Source: a virus. From it: a stretch of DNA of 20,457 nucleotides. Shown piece after piece: positions 12,301-20,457 of the stretch. The translations under genes were made by a program, and so were the position numbers. The stretch is taken from positions 1 through 20,457 of the IMG/VR virus record IMGVR_UViG_3300030419_004815. One strand, given 5' to 3'. Within the stretch, counting starts at the first letter, position 1. Every line of letters begins with the position of its first letter. The notes below the pieces were generated by a model that saw only the letters and a program-made list of their open reading frames with translations, ran no database searches and was not told the DNA's origin.

Positions 12301-14728
12301 ACTTAATGAGGGTCCAGGTCAAATGTTATTTACTCCAAAACCCGTTGGACCTTACCAATATAAAATAGAAAGTGATGAGTTTAATCCGTTAAGTGATATG
12401 TACACTACTAAAGAGATAGCGGAAGTTCTAGGAATAGAATCTAATGATCCTAACAGTGTTAGAACCACATTTTTTAATATATATGATTCGATAATTTTAT
12501 TACCAAAAAGTGCAGTTCAAATGGGTATGATAGTTTTGAGCCCTGCAACACAGGCTAGAAACTTTTATGGAGCTGGTATGATGTTTGTTGGAGCTGGTTA
12601 TACAAGCAAAGATGGTTTACAAGACGCTGTTGAAATCGTTAAACATGATATATTTGGACATATATCATATAAGGATGGTGTGTTAACTCCAGAAGGTAAG
12701 GAAGCAAAACGTCTTTACCAAAAGATGCAAAGACTTGGTATTGTAAATACAAGCGTTACTCTTAATGATGCAGCAGACCTATTTGCAAAGATTAGTGATG
12801 GAGGTAGAAACACAACCATAGCGCAACTAAGTCACAACCTTCAAGCTATAAAAAATACTGCTCCAGGTAAAGTAGTAGATAAAACACTTGGTAGCACGAT
12901 AAGAGGAGCAAAAGCTACCTATGCAGCAGCAGATGATTTTTGGAAGATAGCAGCTTTTTCTGCGGATAGAAGGCAACTTAGAAAAATGTTAGATAATCTT
13001 GTGGCAAATGACAATCGTCAAGAACGTATTGATGAACTAACACAAGCTTTAGAAGTAAATAGAGGAGATAACTTTAGGATAAATGAGATACAACAGGAAA
13101 TTGAAGCCCTAGAGCAAGACATTATAGATAATCCTAATCAAGCATCAGTTAGTGATGACATCAAACTAAAAGTCCTACAAGATTATGCAAGTAAGTTAAC
13201 TACAAAGTTAGGAAAAAATCATACCTCAAATCTTGCTGCTACCCTAAAAAGTACCACCACTCTAGAGGACTATATAGATCAAGTAGCTGCCTATCATGTA
13301 CGTATGCAAATACCTAATTATGATTATGTTGGTAAATTTGCACAGCTAGTAAGGCAATTCCCTATAGGTAATTTTATTGCTTTCCCTACAGAAATACTGC
13401 GTAATGCTGGGAATATTGCACAAATTTCAGCCAAACAGCTTTTCTACAAAATACCCGATAGCCTTATGGAAGAAGGTAATCTTCAAAAACAAAGAATGGT
13501 TTATAAATCTGAAGATGGAACAACAGCTATGGGTCTTCCTACTGGGCAACGACCTTTAATGGCAAACGGGGTTAAAAAGTCCGTCTTAGGAGCAGGTATG
13601 ATAGTTGGGTCAGGCGCTATATTAGAAGCCATAGGACAATGGGCATTTGACGTAGAGGATGAAGAATTAGAAGCTGCATCAGAAGTGGGACCAGAGTATG
13701 CAAGGAATAGTAGAAAGATGCCTGTCTCTAAAGTGAGAGAGGATGGCACTGGATTTGATTTTATAGACTTAACTTGGCTAATGCCTTATGACGGATTAGC
13801 AAGCGTGCAAAAAAGCGTGCAAAATAGTATAAGAGAAGGAGAGTACACAGGAGACTCTATTCCAAAAAGTGTTGTGAAGGGTTTCGTAGATTGGTTGGAC
13901 GAATACCTTACCTCATACACAGGAATATCGATTTCTGCAAAAACACAATTAGAGATACTACAGAATCAAGATTTAGACACAGGCAAACCAATCTATAATC
14001 CAAAAGCTCCGTGGGGGGAATCTTTGATTGAAATGTGGGATCATGCTATAGATAATGCAGGACCAGGTATGGTGTCTCAATTCAGGGATGTTTATAGAGC
14101 TATGCAAGAGGGCGATGAAAGATATGATAAATATTTTAACGATGTAGATTGGCTGAAAGCACAAGCAAGGCTTTTTGGTTTATCTACCTCAAAGATAGAT
14201 CCAAAACAAAGCCTTGGATTTATTGTGCATGACTATAAAAAGTATCTTGAGCAATTTGTAGAAGAAAGACTACGAAGATATGCTTATACGGGAGAGGCTA
14301 TATCCGAAGAAGATATTTTACAGGCATGGTCCGAAGCACAAGATATTTGGTGGAGAGGTCAACAACAGTTATATTTTCAGATTGAATCAATGAGATTGTT
14401 AAAACTTAGTGATAGAGAAATAAGAAAACAATTAAACGAAAGATTTGATAAAGGTACAGGTGTACCTTCTAACTTTACCAGTTCCATAATGAAAGGAAAA
14501 TTTACTCCGTACATACCACACAAAGATATTAGAAAAAAGTTTCTTGCAGGTCAAAGAAGACTTAAAAAACTACAAGAAGAGAAAGGTCTAGATCCAGAAG
14601 CTATAACTAGGAGCTGGCCGAGTAAAGAAATACGAAGAAGGGAAAATTTATTAAAAAACAGGAGAGAAGGAGGATATGATCTTAAGAAGTTTTCTTCTGC
14701 TCCTCGTCCATGGGAAGAGGAAGACTAA
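9371..14728 (+). CDS. Giant internal virion / DNA-ejection protein, 1785 aa
   Basis: This is the largest gene in the window. After an acidic start with three EEPV repeats (residues 31-44), a Gly/Ala-rich hydrophobic region (about 118-165) contains ATRVGGAAVGSAVTKNPLGA, followed by GGREGITEGTQSILEQTG and AVGEGIIGFGVAAPV. I associate these with very large virion or polyvalent proteins of phages. Long charged helices follow. Near residues 1040-1070, LLPKSAVQMG plus LSPATQARNFYGAGMM resembles the large-polyvalent-protein-associated domain LPD38; further on are ADDFWKIAAFSADRRQ (about 1187) and PNYDYVGKFAQLVRQFPIGN (about 1315). No lysozyme or transglycosylase motif is clear. By analogy with T7 gp16 and pelagiphage internal proteins, it may be ejected to carry DNA across the envelope. 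It has no good Shine-Dalgarno. Its end overlaps the opposite-strand nuclease gene by 47 bases. Confidence 0.78.
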   Translation: MSISEEELRRILGEDAWQLDEQLDTSPPITEEPVEEPVEEPVEEDWEWHAPFQYAADQPFENMGRSLEIMGAKGVGKWLRDLTTYPENYAEANKKFMEEQDPSFQWSYLPRAILEQAGQLAGSLATRVGGAAVGSAVTKNPLGALVGGLAGPALFEFIQVVGPIAQERAGGPGNEISAEDWAIATTTAAAMGALNAIGVKKLGDVIDAPANVGAQVLNKFFRTAVAGGREGITEGTQSILEQTGSTILTEEGVQVDPRQAVGEGIIGFGVAAPVQATAETYAGINQEAIIDEQDEQIAEETQRRIDELGDLSELDIDELRDLITEQGHEVNILPTENRSDVRKKLEGFIRQDAMRDIIEEQQAEVLGSVIYEPKIKREQKERFNNMSPDELTNYLDESFGSPEAYTEWASNQGVYSFDAQNDPLGDSSRMALAMSETNRIINNFKRPSKLDKKGMERYASDLVNKFTREQLIDLALKIPSLETGQEFGRPSMNKLSNQAIAEEIAQAHAIWELSQEKFRNIGDDRSIDIPVEPGDIDNPLIQRTLRQDGNARSGIINLFSRDSKKPIEIGFEREGGVTVNVGPNLGGVTYGSRLVVSKEQRDPRAQEYVDQYELANLPIVKINENIEYGHEAQIASIEMPLGTFPQMQSDGMSKAIGALNNWFRPYGQTGLDLGRRRREYIGNVRAMEKEASNLAYTYEKAVAQAVKEGAIPDKETADRLGMAFLRKTGTHLPLDKEQRKLMTEFVSSLQGELRRETNDGARREITEHINELEWALAGKQKTEVALEQIPETMQKPLMAIRTSIDALTKRVMTEYESDIVTEEHKKTLEEGINRYVTRAFALFEPGLGWNPRFSKKWLRSKEAQQFYEHAVASVYAINKNKPNYTRGKARRYVDELLKLENFESTRDLARLPGILTTTEETLKLESPGRILETRANIPRPLRKLMGEISEPDQVAITSLSRLAKLVEKASFYQDVRELNEGPGQMLFTPKPVGPYQYKIESDEFNPLSDMYTTKEIAEVLGIESNDPNSVRTTFFNIYDSIILLPKSAVQMGMIVLSPATQARNFYGAGMMFVGAGYTSKDGLQDAVEIVKHDIFGHISYKDGVLTPEGKEAKRLYQKMQRLGIVNTSVTLNDAADLFAKISDGGRNTTIAQLSHNLQAIKNTAPGKVVDKTLGSTIRGAKATYAAADDFWKIAAFSADRRQLRKMLDNLVANDNRQERIDELTQALEVNRGDNFRINEIQQEIEALEQDIIDNPNQASVSDDIKLKVLQDYASKLTTKLGKNHTSNLAATLKSTTTLEDYIDQVAAYHVRMQIPNYDYVGKFAQLVRQFPIGNFIAFPTEILRNAGNIAQISAKQLFYKIPDSLMEEGNLQKQRMVYKSEDGTTAMGLPTGQRPLMANGVKKSVLGAGMIVGSGAILEAIGQWAFDVEDEELEAASEVGPEYARNSRKMPVSKVREDGTGFDFIDLTWLMPYDGLASVQKSVQNSIREGEYTGDSIPKSVVKGFVDWLDEYLTSYTGISISAKTQLEILQNQDLDTGKPIYNPKAPWGESLIEMWDHAIDNAGPGMVSQFRDVYRAMQEGDERYDKYFNDVDWLKAQARLFGLSTSKIDPKQSLGFIVHDYKKYLEQFVEERLRRYAYTGEAISEEDILQAWSEAQDIWWRGQQQLYFQIESMRLLKLSDREIRKQLNERFDKGTGVPSNFTSSIMKGKFTPYIPHKDIRKKFLAGQRRLKKLQEEKGLDPEAITRSWPSKEIRRRENLLKNRREGGYDLKKFSSAPRPWEEED
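9461..9502 (+). repeat. 12-nt tandem repeat (3.5 copies) encoding EEPV
   Basis: The unit gaagaaccagta occurs three times without mismatch from 9461 to 9496, followed by half a copy. It encodes EEPV-EEPV-EEPV-EE near the N-terminus of the giant virion protein. Identical copies in frame suggest recent slippage and a flexible acidic spacer. Confidence 0.85.
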
Positions 14729-15398
14729 ACTTCTCGACTCTTTCCATCCAAGCATCTGCCGCTCTATTAAATTCATCTCCTTCTAAGATAAACTCTTGAT
14801 ATAGACAATCCACAGAGCACATCATTATGACACCTTTTTTAATGTCTGTTCCGTAGAGTTCGTTATGAGCTAAAGCATAGGCAGCTAATTGCTGGAAATA
14901 ATCCCAAACCCACTGTCTGCGTTTAGGTCTATTAGTTTGTTTAAAATCCATAATAGACAGTTCGTCATTATGTACTCCAACAACATCAGCCTTACCAGCA
15001 TATTTATCTGGATAGAAAAGTGATATTTCACAGCCATAAACTTGAGATATGTTAGGGAACCCTTCGTCCATAATCGTACAGGCCATTTTATAAGCTCTTT
15101 TCTGTTGAGCATTTTCTGGCTTGTAGTCCCAGATATTTCCGTCTCTAAGTTGGCGCTCCAGGAGGTCGTGCATGTATGTTCCTCTTGTCGCAGCTTCTAT
15201 TCTTATACGCTCCGCTTCCTCCTCACCTACTTTTTGGATCCATTTCTTAAGGAAATCTCCTTCTTTGGTTCCTGATAAAACAGTAGTTACGGAAGGAAGT
15301 TTTTGACCGTTACAATCATAAAACCTACCATGCCTTCTATCTTCACTAGAAAACACGCCATACTCATACGGAGATTCGTATAGTATTTTATGCTTCAT
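14682..15398 (-). CDS. PD-(D/E)XK nuclease, RecB/Cas4-like fold
   Basis: This 238-residue protein shows the full RecB-type nuclease signature in order: TRGTYMHDLLE with His77, the beta-strand Glu124 (YGCEISLF), GKAD with Asp138, DFKQT with Asp151 and Lys153, and QQLAAY with Gln170-Tyr174. Such phage enzymes act as 5'-3' or structure-specific DNA exonucleases in recombination, replication and host DNA turnover. It lacks the N- and C-terminal cysteine set of Fe-S Cas4, and no helicase is fused, so a stand-alone phage exonuclease fits best. It starts two bases after the ribbon-helix-helix gene, with AAGG (plus-strand 15406-15409) as ribosome site, so the two are probably cotranscribed. Its 3' end overlaps the opposite-strand giant virion gene. 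Confidence 0.87.
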   Translation of the reverse strand: MKHKILYESPYEYGVFSSEDRRHGRFYDCNGQKLPSVTTVLSGTKEGDFLKKWIQKVGEEEAERIRIEAATRGTYMHDLLERQLRDGNIWDYKPENAQQKRAYKMACTIMDEGFPNISQVYGCEISLFYPDKYAGKADVVGVHNDELSIMDFKQTNRPKRRQWVWDYFQQLAAYALAHNELYGTDIKKGVIMMCSVDCLYQEFILEGDEFNRAADAWMERVEKFSLPLPMDEEQKKTS

Positions 15399-15400
15399 GC

Positions 15401-15571
15401 TTATGCCTTGGGTACGTCGTTTAATCTTCCACTGTCGAGATCTGCTTTCAGTCTCTTAATAGCATAAGCAAATACATTGCTAGTAGGTCTTTCAGTTTGT
15501 TCTCCAATCTGAGACGCTGTTTCAACAATTTCTTTTCTTATTGCTACACTTTTCCATTTAGTAGTGTCCAT
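15401..15571 (-). CDS. Ribbon-helix-helix DNA-binding protein, 56 aa
   Basis: A short ORF starts at the ATG complementary to 15569-15571, with AGGAG (plus-strand 15578-15582) six bases upstream, and ends at TAA 15401-15403. The 56-residue product has the Arc/MetJ/CopG layout: an N-terminal beta strand KWKSVAIR, helix A (KEIVETASQIGEQ), a turn with RP(T)S, and helix B (NVFAYAIKRLKADL). The RP-T-S turn followed by an Ala/Ile/Leu-rich helix is typical. RHH proteins bind palindromic DNA as dimers of dimers and often repress their own promoter. A perfect 14-bp palindrome and a TATAAT box lie just upstream. It precedes the nuclease gene by two bases and likely controls it. An antitoxin role is a weaker alternative, since no small toxin is adjacent. 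Confidence 0.75.
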   Translation of the reverse strand: MDTTKWKSVAIRKEIVETASQIGEQTERPTSNVFAYAIKRLKADLDSGRLNDVPKA

Positions 15572-15591
15572 TGATTACTCCTGTTGGTTTC

Positions 15592-15597
15592 ATTATA
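15592..15597 (-). promoter_or_regulatory. Candidate -10 box TATAAT before the RHH gene
   Basis: The minus strand reads TATAAT at 15597-15592, a perfect sigma70-type -10 hexamer, 20 bases before the RHH ATG and upstream of its AGGAG. A start of transcription near 15585 would give a leader of about 14 bases. At 16-18 bases upstream there is no good TTGACA; the palindrome (15608-15621) occupies the -35 region. This is the only sizeable intergenic gap on the minus strand, which favours a real promoter. Confidence 0.55.
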
Positions 15598-15607
15598 CAA
15601 TATAACA

Positions 15608-15621
15608 TAGGATATATCCTA
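15608..15621. promoter_or_regulatory. 14-bp perfect palindrome, candidate RHH operator
   Basis: TAGGATATATCCTA at 15608-15621 equals its own reverse complement. It lies 10 bases upstream of the TATAAT, over the expected -35 region, 37 bases from the RHH start, and it includes the TAG stop of the polymerase gene. RHH repressors commonly bind such short palindromes, so autoregulation is a reasonable inference. A short palindrome in AT-rich DNA could also be chance. Confidence 0.5.
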
Positions 15622-17490
15622 ATTTTTCTTAGGGGTTTCCATAGAGTCGCCCCAGTTTTTTCCAAGTTCGGCATCTACCTTGTTTGGAATATCCAAAGGT
15701 ACAGCTTCTTCCATAATACGACAAATGTTTGCAACATCCTCCTCACTCTTTACCGAGAACACCAGTTCGTCGTGTACTTGTAAAAGAGGTAAATAGCCTT
15801 CTTTATAGCAATTTACCATCGCTTGTTTGGTCATGTCTGCTGCTGACCCTTGAATTAGTTTATTAAGTGCTTTGTAAACAAAGGCTCTCTTAATCTCGCC
15901 ATTATATTCATGCACCGCTTCTTTATGTTTTAAGGGCCTTCCAGTCCCATATTTAAGTGGTTCCCACATATCAAAGTGACAACGCCTTCCTAGAATAGTT
16001 TTAATATACCCTTTCTGATTAGCGCTTCTCATTACTGAATCAGCTAGTTGCCTAACAAATGGAGCATAGGTATTAAACTTCTGTAAGATCTCAGAAGCTT
16101 CATCTACTGTTACGCCTAGCTGATCGGCTAGTTTACCTTTGCCCATTCCATACATAATACCAAGACCAATAGTCTTAGCAGTCTTTCTATCTATATCTAC
16201 TAAGTTTGCTACCTCCTGGTGAAAATCTGCATCACCTTCATGGTAGGCGTCTGCAATTGCATCTGCTCCATCATATCTAGATCTACTTGCATAATGAGTT
16301 AGTATTCTAGGTTCTTGCTGAGAGAAATCAGCAGAACACCACTGCTCTCCTTCTTCTGGTAAGAACAAGGAACGTATGAGTGGTCCAATTTCTTTATTAC
16401 GTGCAGGGACTTGCTGTAAGTTTGGATTGCTCATGGACAACCGACCTGTAACAGTTCCACCTGTTTCTCCTTTCAGTTGCCTTATTTCTGCATGTATTCT
16501 TCCATTGTGCTCATGCTTAAGTATAGAATCAATAAAGGTACTGTGAGTCTTGTTTACCTCTCTTGCTTCTCTAATCAATTGAGCAATTGGGTGACTATGA
16601 TTCTCTAAAAAAGCTTTTGTAAAACTAGGTAATCCAGTAGGTGTTCGTAGGTAAGAAAGCTTAAGTGAATCAAATACCTTAGCTAATGACTTAGCTGCCC
16701 ATAGTTGTACCTCTTTCACTCCAGACTCTTTCTTTATCTTTTGTATTATTTGTTTCTCTCTTTTAATTAGTTCAGTTTTTAAAGACTCCGCTCTTTCTAA
16801 ATCAACACGAACTCCTTTTTGTTTCATTGCAAGTATGACTGGGAGCACTTCCATTTCTAAATCAAAGACATTCCAGAGGTTTTGTTCCTCCAGTAAAATC
16901 TTGAAGTGATTCCATAACTTAAGCGTGAGGGCGGCGTCCTGTGTTGCATAAGTGCCTACATATGCTGATGGTAAGCGCCACATTTCAGCCTTGGGATCCA
17001 ATCCCCACTCCTCTGCAGCTTCATTTAGTTCCGCTTCTGTTTTACCCTCATTTATATACTCTCTACCTAGTGCATTGAGGGTGTACCAGAATTGGTTCTC
17101 ATCTATGAGGGGAGCAACAATCATAGTATCAATAATTCTACCGTTGACCTTAACTCCTTCTCTGGTTAACCACCCCACATCATAAGTAGCATTATGAAAA
17201 ATCTTGTCACTATTAGTAGCACAGACTTTTTTAGTGAATTCGATAACTTTCTTTTTAGGAAAGTTAAATCCAGTTTCGTGTCCAAATGGAAAATAGTTTT
17301 CATAACCTTCAATAGCGAAAGATATACCTACTACTTCTCCGTCTCCTCTAATATAACCTGGACCCACTTCTTTTAATCCTGGATCTCTGGTTTCTAAATC
17401 AATGGCTATCTCTTTTGCTTGAGATAGTTTTTCAGTTGGGAATGTATCAGGTGCAATCCATTCCGTTGGGGGTTTATAAACAAAGCTCAT
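15619..17490 (-). CDS. polA: Family A DNA polymerase with 3'-5' exonuclease (Leu762 type)
   Basis: The 623-residue enzyme replicates the phage genome. The proofreading domain is intact: Exo I IAIDLET (Asp31, Glu33), Exo II NATYD (Asp104), Exo III YATQD (Tyr181, Asp185). The polymerase domain has TGRLSMSNPNLQQVP (348-362), motif A SADFSQQEPR (Asp388, Glu393), motif B RKTAKTIGLGIMYG (Arg435, Lys439, Tyr447) and motif C QVHDE (His573, Asp574, Glu575). There is no 5'-3' exonuclease domain, as usual in phages. At the position of E. coli Phe762 the residue is Leu443 (codon at 16162-16164), a variant described as common in marine viral polymerases. The start codon overlaps the helicase stop as ATGA, pointing to coupled translation with the helicase. 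Confidence 0.96.
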   Translation of the reverse strand: MSFVYKPPTEWIAPDTFPTEKLSQAKEIAIDLETRDPGLKEVGPGYIRGDGEVVGISFAIEGYENYFPFGHETGFNFPKKKVIEFTKKVCATNSDKIFHNATYDVGWLTREGVKVNGRIIDTMIVAPLIDENQFWYTLNALGREYINEGKTEAELNEAAEEWGLDPKAEMWRLPSAYVGTYATQDAALTLKLWNHFKILLEEQNLWNVFDLEMEVLPVILAMKQKGVRVDLERAESLKTELIKREKQIIQKIKKESGVKEVQLWAAKSLAKVFDSLKLSYLRTPTGLPSFTKAFLENHSHPIAQLIREAREVNKTHSTFIDSILKHEHNGRIHAEIRQLKGETGGTVTGRLSMSNPNLQQVPARNKEIGPLIRSLFLPEEGEQWCSADFSQQEPRILTHYASRSRYDGADAIADAYHEGDADFHQEVANLVDIDRKTAKTIGLGIMYGMGKGKLADQLGVTVDEASEILQKFNTYAPFVRQLADSVMRSANQKGYIKTILGRRCHFDMWEPLKYGTGRPLKHKEAVHEYNGEIKRAFVYKALNKLIQGSAADMTKQAMVNCYKEGYLPLLQVHDELVFSVKSEEDVANICRIMEEAVPLDIPNKVDAELGKNWGDSMETPKKN

Positions 17491-19037
17491 ATAACATACC
17501 TGTAATAATCATCTTGGGCTTGAATTAAATATAAATTATCTATGGTACGTGTAACTGCAACATAGAATTGTCGGTGTAGCCCATCTGGTTGTAACATGGA
17601 ATTACGTTTCTGTGCTTTAGATAAATCTAAATATACAGCTACGTTTTCCGCTTCCCCACCTTTCGCCTGGTGAATTGTCGAAATGACGATGCGTGGATCT
17701 CCGTGTAAATCTTCTTCGTTCTTAATTGCTCTTTCTATAAAACTTCTTCTTTCTACGTCTATTGTTTTTTCAAAAACTTCTATCCAATTCTTTCCCATGC
17801 ACTCTTCTCTAAAACCAAAGTTATCCACTATTTCTCGGAGGTTTACCATTTGTGCTTTATTGGGAGCTTGACTAACTTGTGAAATGAATCCTCTTTTAAC
17901 TCCACTTTTGCCAAGATACTGATATAAGTCATCTAGTTCACCTACGCTTATTTCTTCTTCATTAGATAGTTTTTCCCATACATCGAGAGCTGTCATCATT
18001 TTACGAGGAATATATCTATAGTGATTGTGAGTAAATGGATAGCCATTATCTATTAAATACTTTCTTATGTTATATCCTTTAGAAGCATCTGTTAACATGT
18101 AATCACAAGAGGCAAGCACCAACCAGTTTCCTTTGTCAAGTGGAAGAATTTCTGGGGAGCTTACTCTGTTGACAGTTCCTTTCTCTTCTCTTGGCTTATA
18201 TTTCTTAGGCTCTCTACTAATAATTCGCTTAGAAATTTTTTCTGCAATTGGATGAACTTTAGATGGAATACGAAAAGATTGATCTAGAACAATATTTTTT
18301 CCTTCGTATTGAACAAAACGTTGTGGCCTAGCTCCATTCCATTCATAAATAGCCTGGTCATCATCTCCCGCTATATAAGTATGTGTGGCCACTTGTGCCA
18401 ACTTATCAACAAGCCTCCAATTTATTTCAGCTAAATCTTGTGCTTCATCTACTATTAAAACCTCTAGATCGGGAGGAGTTCCATCCTCTAAAAATTTATT
18501 AATCATATCCGCAAACGAATACACAGGAGGAACTCTAGACAATCTAAAGGACTCCCATGCTTCTGAAATAGGCTCTAACATATGAGAAACAACCCCTTTT
18601 CTTTCTTCCTTGTCTAAGGACAAACGTTCATCCTTTAAAGATCTACAGTTTGTTTTTGCTCTTTCCATAATATCGAAATAGGGATCTTGGACCACGGACC
18701 TAAGTGCTTTGGTTCCAGTTCCATATTTCTTACTAAGATTGAAATTGTATTCTTCCAAGAAATCAAAGATGTGCCTTCCATTAAGTACCTGGGATATTCC
18801 CATGATACGTTTACAGAAAGCATGACTTGTACAAAAATAAGGCATTTCATCAAAGCCTAACCCAAAACGTAAATGAGCTCTGTTCTTTCCTTCCTCAGCT
18901 GCTTTTACAGAGAAAGAAATAAAAGCTATTTTCTCTGGTGGCGTACCTTTGTCTAAATATTCTTCAATGATGTTCATTAGAGTAGTAGTCTTACCAGTGC
19001 CGGGAGGACCAAAATATTTAGTAATATTTACTCCCAC
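17487..19037 (-). CDS. SF1 (UvrD/Rep-like) DNA helicase, GTG start
   Basis: This 516-residue ATPase carries the superfamily 1A motifs in order: Walker A GPPGTGKT (10-17), Ia SFSVKAAEE, motif II VDEAQD (196-201), motif III GDDDQAIYEWNGA (from 224), motif IV DQSFRIP (Arg256), motif V STIHQAKGGEAENV (from 453) and motif VI FYVAVTRT (Arg497). It should unwind DNA 3'-5' at the phage fork, or act in recombination with the RecB-like nuclease gene farther downstream. The start is GTG at 19035-19037 on the minus strand, five bases from an AAGGA (plus 19043-19047); it overlaps the primase end by 10 bases. At 516 residues it is shorter than cellular UvrD (about 720), with reduced 1B/2B insertions. Confidence 0.93.
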   Translation of the reverse strand: MGVNITKYFGPPGTGKTTTLMNIIEEYLDKGTPPEKIAFISFSVKAAEEGKNRAHLRFGLGFDEMPYFCTSHAFCKRIMGISQVLNGRHIFDFLEEYNFNLSKKYGTGTKALRSVVQDPYFDIMERAKTNCRSLKDERLSLDKEERKGVVSHMLEPISEAWESFRLSRVPPVYSFADMINKFLEDGTPPDLEVLIVDEAQDLAEINWRLVDKLAQVATHTYIAGDDDQAIYEWNGARPQRFVQYEGKNIVLDQSFRIPSKVHPIAEKISKRIISREPKKYKPREEKGTVNRVSSPEILPLDKGNWLVLASCDYMLTDASKGYNIRKYLIDNGYPFTHNHYRYIPRKMMTALDVWEKLSNEEEISVGELDDLYQYLGKSGVKRGFISQVSQAPNKAQMVNLREIVDNFGFREECMGKNWIEVFEKTIDVERRSFIERAIKNEEDLHGDPRIVISTIHQAKGGEAENVAVYLDLSKAQKRNSMLQPDGLHRQFYVAVTRTIDNLYLIQAQDDYYRYVI

Positions 19038-20457
19038 GCTTTTCCTTCTTCTATGTTTTTAAATTCTAATGGGGAAATCTCTTCTGCAAACTCATTAATA
19101 TCCAGGACCCATATCTTTTTATTTCCAATAGATTTATCTATGTATTTAGAAATATTAGAGGCTCCCATTTCTTTTAATTCAGTAAATACTTCTGCTTCTT
19201 TAACCGTACGCATCCTTTTAAATTCTTGTATAAATAGAACCACATCTCTACCAGTGAACCACCATTGCTTTGCTCCGTCCTCCTCATATCTATACACACC
19301 TTTAGAAGCTATAGAAAGTTTGGAAGAAGATTCAGACAATCTACAAAATTCATAAATAGCTTCTTGTAAAAGACCTTGTTTAGTCATATCAGAAGGTACA
19401 TCCACTTCTTGTACATCTTGTAATAAAGCATTTAACTTAGCCACCCAGTCAGACTTTTTAACATCTGGTGGGCATTGATTTAAAACTTCCATACAACGTT
19501 GTTGAAACATAGAGAAGTTATGTAGTTGCTTAGTATCTAAAACAATTGTTCTTCCATCTACATCTAAATGCCATAGTGGAGGATCTGTTAAATATTTTCT
19601 AAGACCACCGAACTTAGGATCTCTTTCTGAGGCATCAATACCATGACGACGCGTTACACATATTCCACTCTGACAAAAATCAACTAATGGTGGTTTACTA
19701 CACTGGTATCTATATTCATTCTTTTCTAGACTTTGAATAATTGTATTTAATTCACTATGCGATAAAGCTTTGGTACAAACTGTTTTATTTATATCCTGGA
19801 GCTTGTCTTTCCATTCTTCTCCTTCTGGATAAACTTTCCGTAGGAGCACCCCATAATTTAACAAAGCATTATTTCGCATGCCTTCTGGAATCCCATTTAA
19901 TTTCATATGAACTAAACACGGTGGAGCTTCATCCCAGATAGTATTTCCTTTAGGGATTTGTTTCTTCCTAGTTTTCTTAACTGGTAGGTATTTATCCAGT
20001 TGAGCTTCTGTAACAGATTTCTCTTCTGCAATTTTAAAAAACTCTTCTATATTTGCTGCCTCACCATCAGACTTTAACGCAAACCGAGTTGTATCTTCTC
20101 CTGCGAAGTAAGGCATATTAAGCCAGTTACCTGTTTGTTTCTCTTTTGGTATTTGTTTAGACCATTCATATTGCTTGGGAAAGATTTCATCCCCCGTTCT
20201 ACCTAAAGAAGCAGCTATTTCTTCTAGCTTACTTTGTATTTTTATAGCTGGTATTGGTTGCTTAGTGAATAAAAATAAATGCACTCCACCTGATTTAGTC
20301 ATACAAGGAACCAGGGGTAAGTCCATTTCTTTAATGACGTCTAATAATTTAGATGTATCTATTGGGTATTCATCTACATCAATGCAACCCCATTTACACG
20401 TTTCATCATCCTTTAAAGGAATAACTCCAATAGATGTTTCGCCCTTAAGATGATTTT
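19028..20457 (-). CDS. Archaeo-eukaryotic-type (TOTE-like) DNA primase, 5' partial
   Basis: The frame stays open from the stop at 19028 to the window end, so the N-terminus is missing; the ATG at 20326 is internal. About 475 residues are visible. AEP motif I is WGCIDVDEY (Asp26, Asp28 of the visible part) and motif II is KSGGVHLFLF (His59). Then come GDEIFPKQ and GNWLNMPYFAG, a pattern I associate with TOTE-type primases. A later region has PPC, EGMRN and four cysteines (visible positions 180, 252, 261, 266), a possible Zn or Fe-S site. The last 60 residues resemble a winged helix. There is no helicase domain; the overlapping downstream SF1 helicase probably supplies it. Role: RNA or DNA primer synthesis. 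Confidence 0.85.
   Translation of the reverse strand, partial: NHLKGETSIGVIPLKDDETCKWGCIDVDEYPIDTSKLLDVIKEMDLPLVPCMTKSGGVHLFLFTKQPIPAIKIQSKLEEIAASLGRTGDEIFPKQYEWSKQIPKEKQTGNWLNMPYFAGEDTTRFALKSDGEAANIEEFFKIAEEKSVTEAQLDKYLPVKKTRKKQIPKGNTIWDEAPPCLVHMKLNGIPEGMRNNALLNYGVLLRKVYPEGEEWKDKLQDINKTVCTKALSHSELNTIIQSLEKNEYRYQCSKPPLVDFCQSGICVTRRHGIDASERDPKFGGLRKYLTDPPLWHLDVDGRTIVLDTKQLHNFSMFQQRCMEVLNQCPPDVKKSDWVAKLNALLQDVQEVDVPSDMTKQGLLQEAIYEFCRLSESSSKLSIASKGVYRYEEDGAKQWWFTGRDVVLFIQEFKRMRTVKEAEVFTELKEMGASNISKYIDKSIGNKKIWVLDINEFAEEISPLEFKNIEEGKAWE

Follow-up and report, generated by a model that had tools for sequence, protein, structure and literature searches.

What does a putative DNA-binding protein of 56 residues regulate when its gene lies between the polymerase and exonuclease genes of a phage replication operon? 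The stretch of DNA analyzed (the window, 20,457 nucleotides) carries on its minus strand a primase gene (19028..20326) and a UvrD-like helicase gene (17487..19037) in the same operon as polA, which encodes a family A DNA polymerase (15619..17490). Directly downstream of polA is the gene for a small ribbon-helix-helix (RHH) protein (15401..15571, ATG start), followed by a gene for a PD-(D/E)XK exonuclease (14682..15398), which matches the phage family phrog_298 and is presumed to be co-regulated with the RHH gene. The primase and helicase genes overlap, as do the helicase and polymerase genes, and the 47 nucleotides between the polA stop and the RHH start codon are the only real spacer among the operon genes in the window.

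A first-pass annotation had reported the 56-aa open reading frame, a Shine-Dalgarno sequence, a TATAAT hexamer and a perfect 14-bp palindrome at this junction, and all are present. The Shine-Dalgarno-like CAGGAG (15577..15582, minus strand) is kept in most relatives, the -10 hexamer TATAAT (TGTATAAT; 15592..15597, minus strand) would belong to a promoter for the RHH and exonuclease genes, and the palindrome TAGGATATATCCTA (15608..15621) is the presumed operator. The nuclease gene was likewise correctly placed two bases beyond the RHH stop, with its ATG at 15398. At the upstream border, the primase frame runs beyond the window end, where its true start lies, and position 20326, given as the start, probably falls inside the gene; the stretch upstream of it (L229:3-230) holds a short run of ambiguous codons. 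At the other border, the exonuclease gene and a plus-strand gene for a 1785-aa virion protein converge, and their 3' ends overlap by 47 bp (14682-14728).

Identity and conservation of the small protein

The window protein matched no family in a Pfam search and gave a weak match to PHROG 3180, 'Arc-like repressor' (E = 0.017). A profile built from 31 relatives was more informative; its best PDB match was engineered Arc (E = 1.5e-4), with weaker matches to Arc, AvtR, CdbA and Mnt, all of them RHH proteins. The AlphaFold2 monomer (pLDDT 84.7) has an extended N terminus followed by helices at residues 13-26 and 30-47. When this model was searched with Foldseek, the top matches were Arc (first), ORF56, MazE6, MatP and CopG, the leading hits being RHH proteins; the E-values were weak, as expected for only 56 residues. 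A distant relative (L295) exceeds the cut-off of the Pfam family RHH_5 (PF07878; 31.4 versus 26 bits), as the window protein does not; among Pfam families, RHH_5 and Arc (PF03869) come closest to it. The strand-helix-helix fold of about 45 residues expected of the superfamily was found in the model and its structural neighbors, and kinship to known RHH proteins in the profile matches and in relatives above the RHH_5 cut-off. Judged by sequence profiles and the predicted fold, the protein is an Arc/CopG-type RHH protein, as first proposed.

Arc contacts DNA through Q9, N11 and R13. In a manual alignment these positions are occupied by W6, S8 and A10; W6 and S8 are invariant in the family alignment and A10 is nearly so.

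Viral contigs were scanned with the RHH, exonuclease and polymerase proteins as queries, which yielded a clade sample of 43 distinct upstream sequences. The RHH gene lies between the polymerase and exonuclease genes in every phage found that has a polymerase at least 72% identical to that of the window and a contig covering the junction. The first-pass annotation had described the gene as an insertion in the replication operon, a view that is not supported; the gene did not enter recently, as all phages found in the clade carry it. Codons 1-44 are under purifying selection (median dN/dS 0.11, median dS 1.28), and in most relatives the RHH and exonuclease genes are separated by 2 nt or overlap by 4 nt (ATGA or GTGA). 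No second copy of the gene was found, each of the 12 records searched having one. In two related lineages, a peroxiredoxin gene (AhpC/TSA, PF00578) sits between the RHH and exonuclease genes (L031:5340-5849, also L032 and L033; L090:3492-4001) and would therefore share the same promoter.

Named phages were considered as carriers of the gene, and no convincing homologue was found in 50,697 phage records. The polymerases of HTVC023P and DSL-LC04 are related, but the gene order differs. Where the polymerase is about 55% identical (HTVC023P-like), the polymerase and exonuclease genes are apart and no RHH gene was seen between them. The sole match among genome contigs (L310, NZVD01000050.1) is filed under a Rhodopirellula MAG; since it carries the genes of the phage operon described here, it is probably of viral origin and was placed in the MAG by binning.

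The motif TIGLGIMYGM of the window polymerase contains a Leu that we liken to Leu762, and the window genome encodes SNF2 and UvrD helicases, as Leu762 PolA virioplankton do. The paper describing Leu762 PolA virioplankton with these two helicases covers helicase and RNR neighbors; the word repressor is absent from it (PMC6302109). None of the papers searched contains both 'pelagiphage' and 'ribbon-helix-helix'.

The dyad and predicted promoter between polA and the RHH gene

The polA TAG stop (15621-15619) forms part of the palindrome (15621-15608). With a predicted +1 near 15585, the palindrome covers about -36 to -23. There is no good -35 hexamer: at 17-bp spacing the sequence reads AGGATA, a poor match. 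A sigma-70 consensus scan did not list this promoter. Its -10 element is better conserved, TGTATAAT being invariant in 18 sequences with the standard layout. The 23.9-kb record has only two copies of TGTATAAT: one belongs to the RHH promoter, and the other, past the window end (G000:22395-22402, L229), precedes the divergent SNF2 helicase gene. That TGTATAAT marks a shared class of phage promoters is only weakly suggested, as second copies stand in different places in different genomes.

A palindrome of this length is not rare. The window contains two perfect palindromes of at least 14 bp, versus 1.7 expected from dinucleotide shuffles, although the chance of finding one within the 69-bp segment from the end of polA to the RHH ATG is 0.8%. 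We rejected the palindrome as significant by itself, and the case must therefore rest on its conservation. A search upstream of homologues, suggested at the outset, recovered the same dyad in 21 sequences of the window's own lineage. Its core, GATATATC, is invariant in all 21, as are its four central, symmetric bases. The -10 hexamer always follows the dyad center at exactly 17 bp, even though the ATG lies at distances from 42 to 46. A natural variant, AAGATATATCTT, occurs among relatives, and L015 has a perfect palindrome of 26 bp. One further lineage member (L244) has a degraded dyad, GATATGTC, and was left out of the set of 21. Taken singly, members of the lineage give inverted-repeat p-values of 0.003 to 0.3 against shuffles.

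Changes in the two half-sites are paired. Eight of the 21 sequences have G-C as the flanking pair and 11 have A-T; the other two (L010 and L017) show a G/T intermediate. On the polymerase tree the A-T state occupies two separate groups (L162-L168 and L004-L013), with the intermediate L010 as sister to the latter; the change from AGGA/TCCT to AAGA/TCTT thus arose at least twice. Retention of the dyad merely on account of the polA stop codon was rejected, since it persists where that stop has shifted (L017 and L162-L168). The promoter itself is doubtful in L162-L168, although the dyad is kept there; the hexamer at 17-bp spacing is TAAAAT, not TATAAT, and this imperfect -10 abuts the Shine-Dalgarno sequence.

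The site is also nearly unique. The pattern RRGATATATCYY is found at the polA-RHH junction in 18 of 18 records of the window's lineage, with a single extra copy in each of two of them; judged by eye, neither extra copy has a TATAAT at the right spacing. Near-uniqueness fits autoregulation and not a regulon, and a regulon of several sites was rejected accordingly. Loss of the open reading frame or palindrome among related phages had been set beforehand as grounds for abandoning the proposal; instead, both are conserved.

Other arrangements in related phages and competing explanations

The layout is not universal. In a related lineage (L018-L024, polymerases 80-82% identical), the RHH gene follows polA after 8-21 nt, both the dyad and the spacer being absent, and neither of two records from this lineage contains RRGATATATCYY. 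The two dyad-less genomes examined share no non-coding palindrome elsewhere. Relocation of the operator was considered and rejected, since the only long palindrome common to both, CGTAAATTAATTAATTTACG (20-22 bp, perfect; L312:10012 and L315:12250), is inside a small coding gene, which we take to be DUF1289-like. Two deeper lineages (polymerases 73-75% identical) have other inverted repeats at the promoter, each present once per genome: CCTAATATAT-GTTGT-ATATATTAGG and TTATAC-TTTT-GTATAA. The first clearly beats shuffles in L034 alone (p = 0.003, against 0.09-0.7 elsewhere), and the second in no case (p = 0.35-0.7). These repeats are no more than suggestive.

More distant relatives, about 35-45% identical (L041-L061 and L284-L309; MD[TP]xKWKS[VI]AV and similar), head a replication operon. 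The order is SNF2 helicase, then RHH, DUF7307, a Pam3 gp34-like protein, primase and UvrD helicase, the later genes being named partly by resemblance to those of the window; sometimes a UPF0102-like nuclease gene lies on the opposite strand between the SNF2 helicase and RHH genes. Many of these operons show, by eye, TTGACA-17-TATCTT and, near the predicted +1, an almost symmetric CCACTAAATTAATGG. In L049 and L062, whose polymerases are 49% identical, the RHH gene is again behind polA. At the head of the window's own operon stand genes for DUF7307 and a gp34-like protein, with the SNF2 helicase gene divergent from them, and no RHH gene was found there. The family thus seems tied to replication operons, in various positions, and its members appear to regulate such operons generally in these phages.

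These arrangements bear on whether the main targets of the protein are other promoters of the phage or its host, or whether it serves replication as an accessory DNA-binding protein, with the dyad at its own promoter being minor or the site of another factor. The gene persists in the lineage without the dyad, distant relatives head whole replication operons, so that targets may lie elsewhere, and an exact-pattern search would miss degenerate sites. Against this, the site is almost unique to the RHH promoter in the 18 records and the dyad-less genomes offer no shared non-coding alternative. We regard this explanation as unlikely, though it is the strongest of the competitors.

We think it less probable still that the dyad acts in RNA, as a hairpin or terminator where polA ends, or that it is a promoter part recognized by a polymerase factor of host or phage. 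The overlap with the polA stop, the place of the dyad where a -35 box is expected, and the G/T intermediates, which would also pair as G-U in RNA, are compatible with such roles. The isolated stem, however, is just 5 bp (-3.9 kcal/mol), another hairpin is preferred in context, and folding is nothing unusual relative to shuffles. There is no T-run, no entry in the terminator scan and no Rfam match, so a hairpin or terminator is not supported. Moreover, the four central bases, which would form the loop, are invariant and symmetric, and an element common to promoters would be expected at further places in the genome, where the dyad is not seen. A toxin-antitoxin-like pair with the RHH protein as antitoxin is very improbable: the RHH gene directly precedes a nuclease gene, an order shared with type II modules whose antitoxin is an RHH protein, but that nuclease belongs to a phage exonuclease family and not to a known toxin family, its phrog_298 relatives in other phages do not lie near an RHH gene of this family, RHH relatives at operon heads are away from the exonuclease so that pairing is not obligate, and peroxiredoxin can separate the two genes.

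Candidate autorepression at the internal promoter

The explanation we favor, and consider probable, is that an RHH dimer binds TAGGATATATCCTA at the internal promoter and limits expression of its own gene and the exonuclease, as a CopG-like autorepressor. It is the best reading because relatives keep both the open reading frame and the dyad, and the dyad hardly occurs outside this site. A dimer, or a pair of dimers, would sit on the dyad and cover about -36 to -23, blocking RNA polymerase at the promoter whose -10 element is TATAAT (15597-15592). Transcription of the RHH and exonuclease genes would thereby be held at a set level. The upstream primase, helicase and polymerase genes would be unaffected, and their transcription would reach the RHH and exonuclease genes by read-through only. 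The interpretation in the first-pass annotation is partly supported: autorepression with separate control of the exonuclease is favored, and a universal layout or an inserted gene is not supported. We infer DNA binding, promoter activity, the transcription start and repression, as well as a benefit of capping the exonuclease level. Claims on timing are not supported.

The kind of system is already known, namely a small RHH autorepressor adjoining a replication gene. CopG of plasmid pMV158 is the auto-repressor of copG-repB (PMC5717011), and its dimers occupy the copG promoter by cooperative binding, in competition with RNA polymerase (PMC5703833). The window protein resembles CopG in being a very small RHH protein, encoded first in a pair whose second member is a replication gene, and in its presumed repression of its own promoter. 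In the CopG system, too, the binding site overlaps the -35 region. As in a CopG-type system, the gene stands before a replication gene and is linked to it, by the close RHH-exonuclease junctions here and as the first gene of a primase-helicase operon in distant relatives; a symmetric site overlapping its own promoter was found in the window's lineage and not in L018-L024. The window system differs in belonging to a phage and not a plasmid, in having an exonuclease and not an initiator downstream, in being embedded in a larger operon, and in its dyad sequence, with an operator that is presumed. Arc of phage P22, a 53-aa phage RHH repressor and the first structural match, is the other close parallel. 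Arc works within a temperate phage's immunity region, whereas the window gene is in a replication operon and has different residues on the DNA-facing strand. The RHH family and its operator are new to the collections searched.

A broader proposal, which we offer tentatively and hold as possible but not favored, is that MDxxKWKS[VI]A proteins form a widespread, hitherto undescribed family of replication-operon regulators in uncultivated marine phages with related PolA, SNF2 and UvrD genes. At the operon head it might set the dose of most replication genes, and in the window's clade a private internal promoter might meter the exonuclease only, so that the position of the autorepressor would decide which part of the machinery is throttled. 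A gene short enough for annotation to miss is among the most conserved features of the replication region, and with the dyad it provides a concrete candidate operator-regulator pair in marine phages known solely from metagenomes. If autorepression is correct, the exonuclease would be dosed apart from the other replication proteins, and feedback would offer a simple way to limit a nuclease potentially harmful to replicating DNA.
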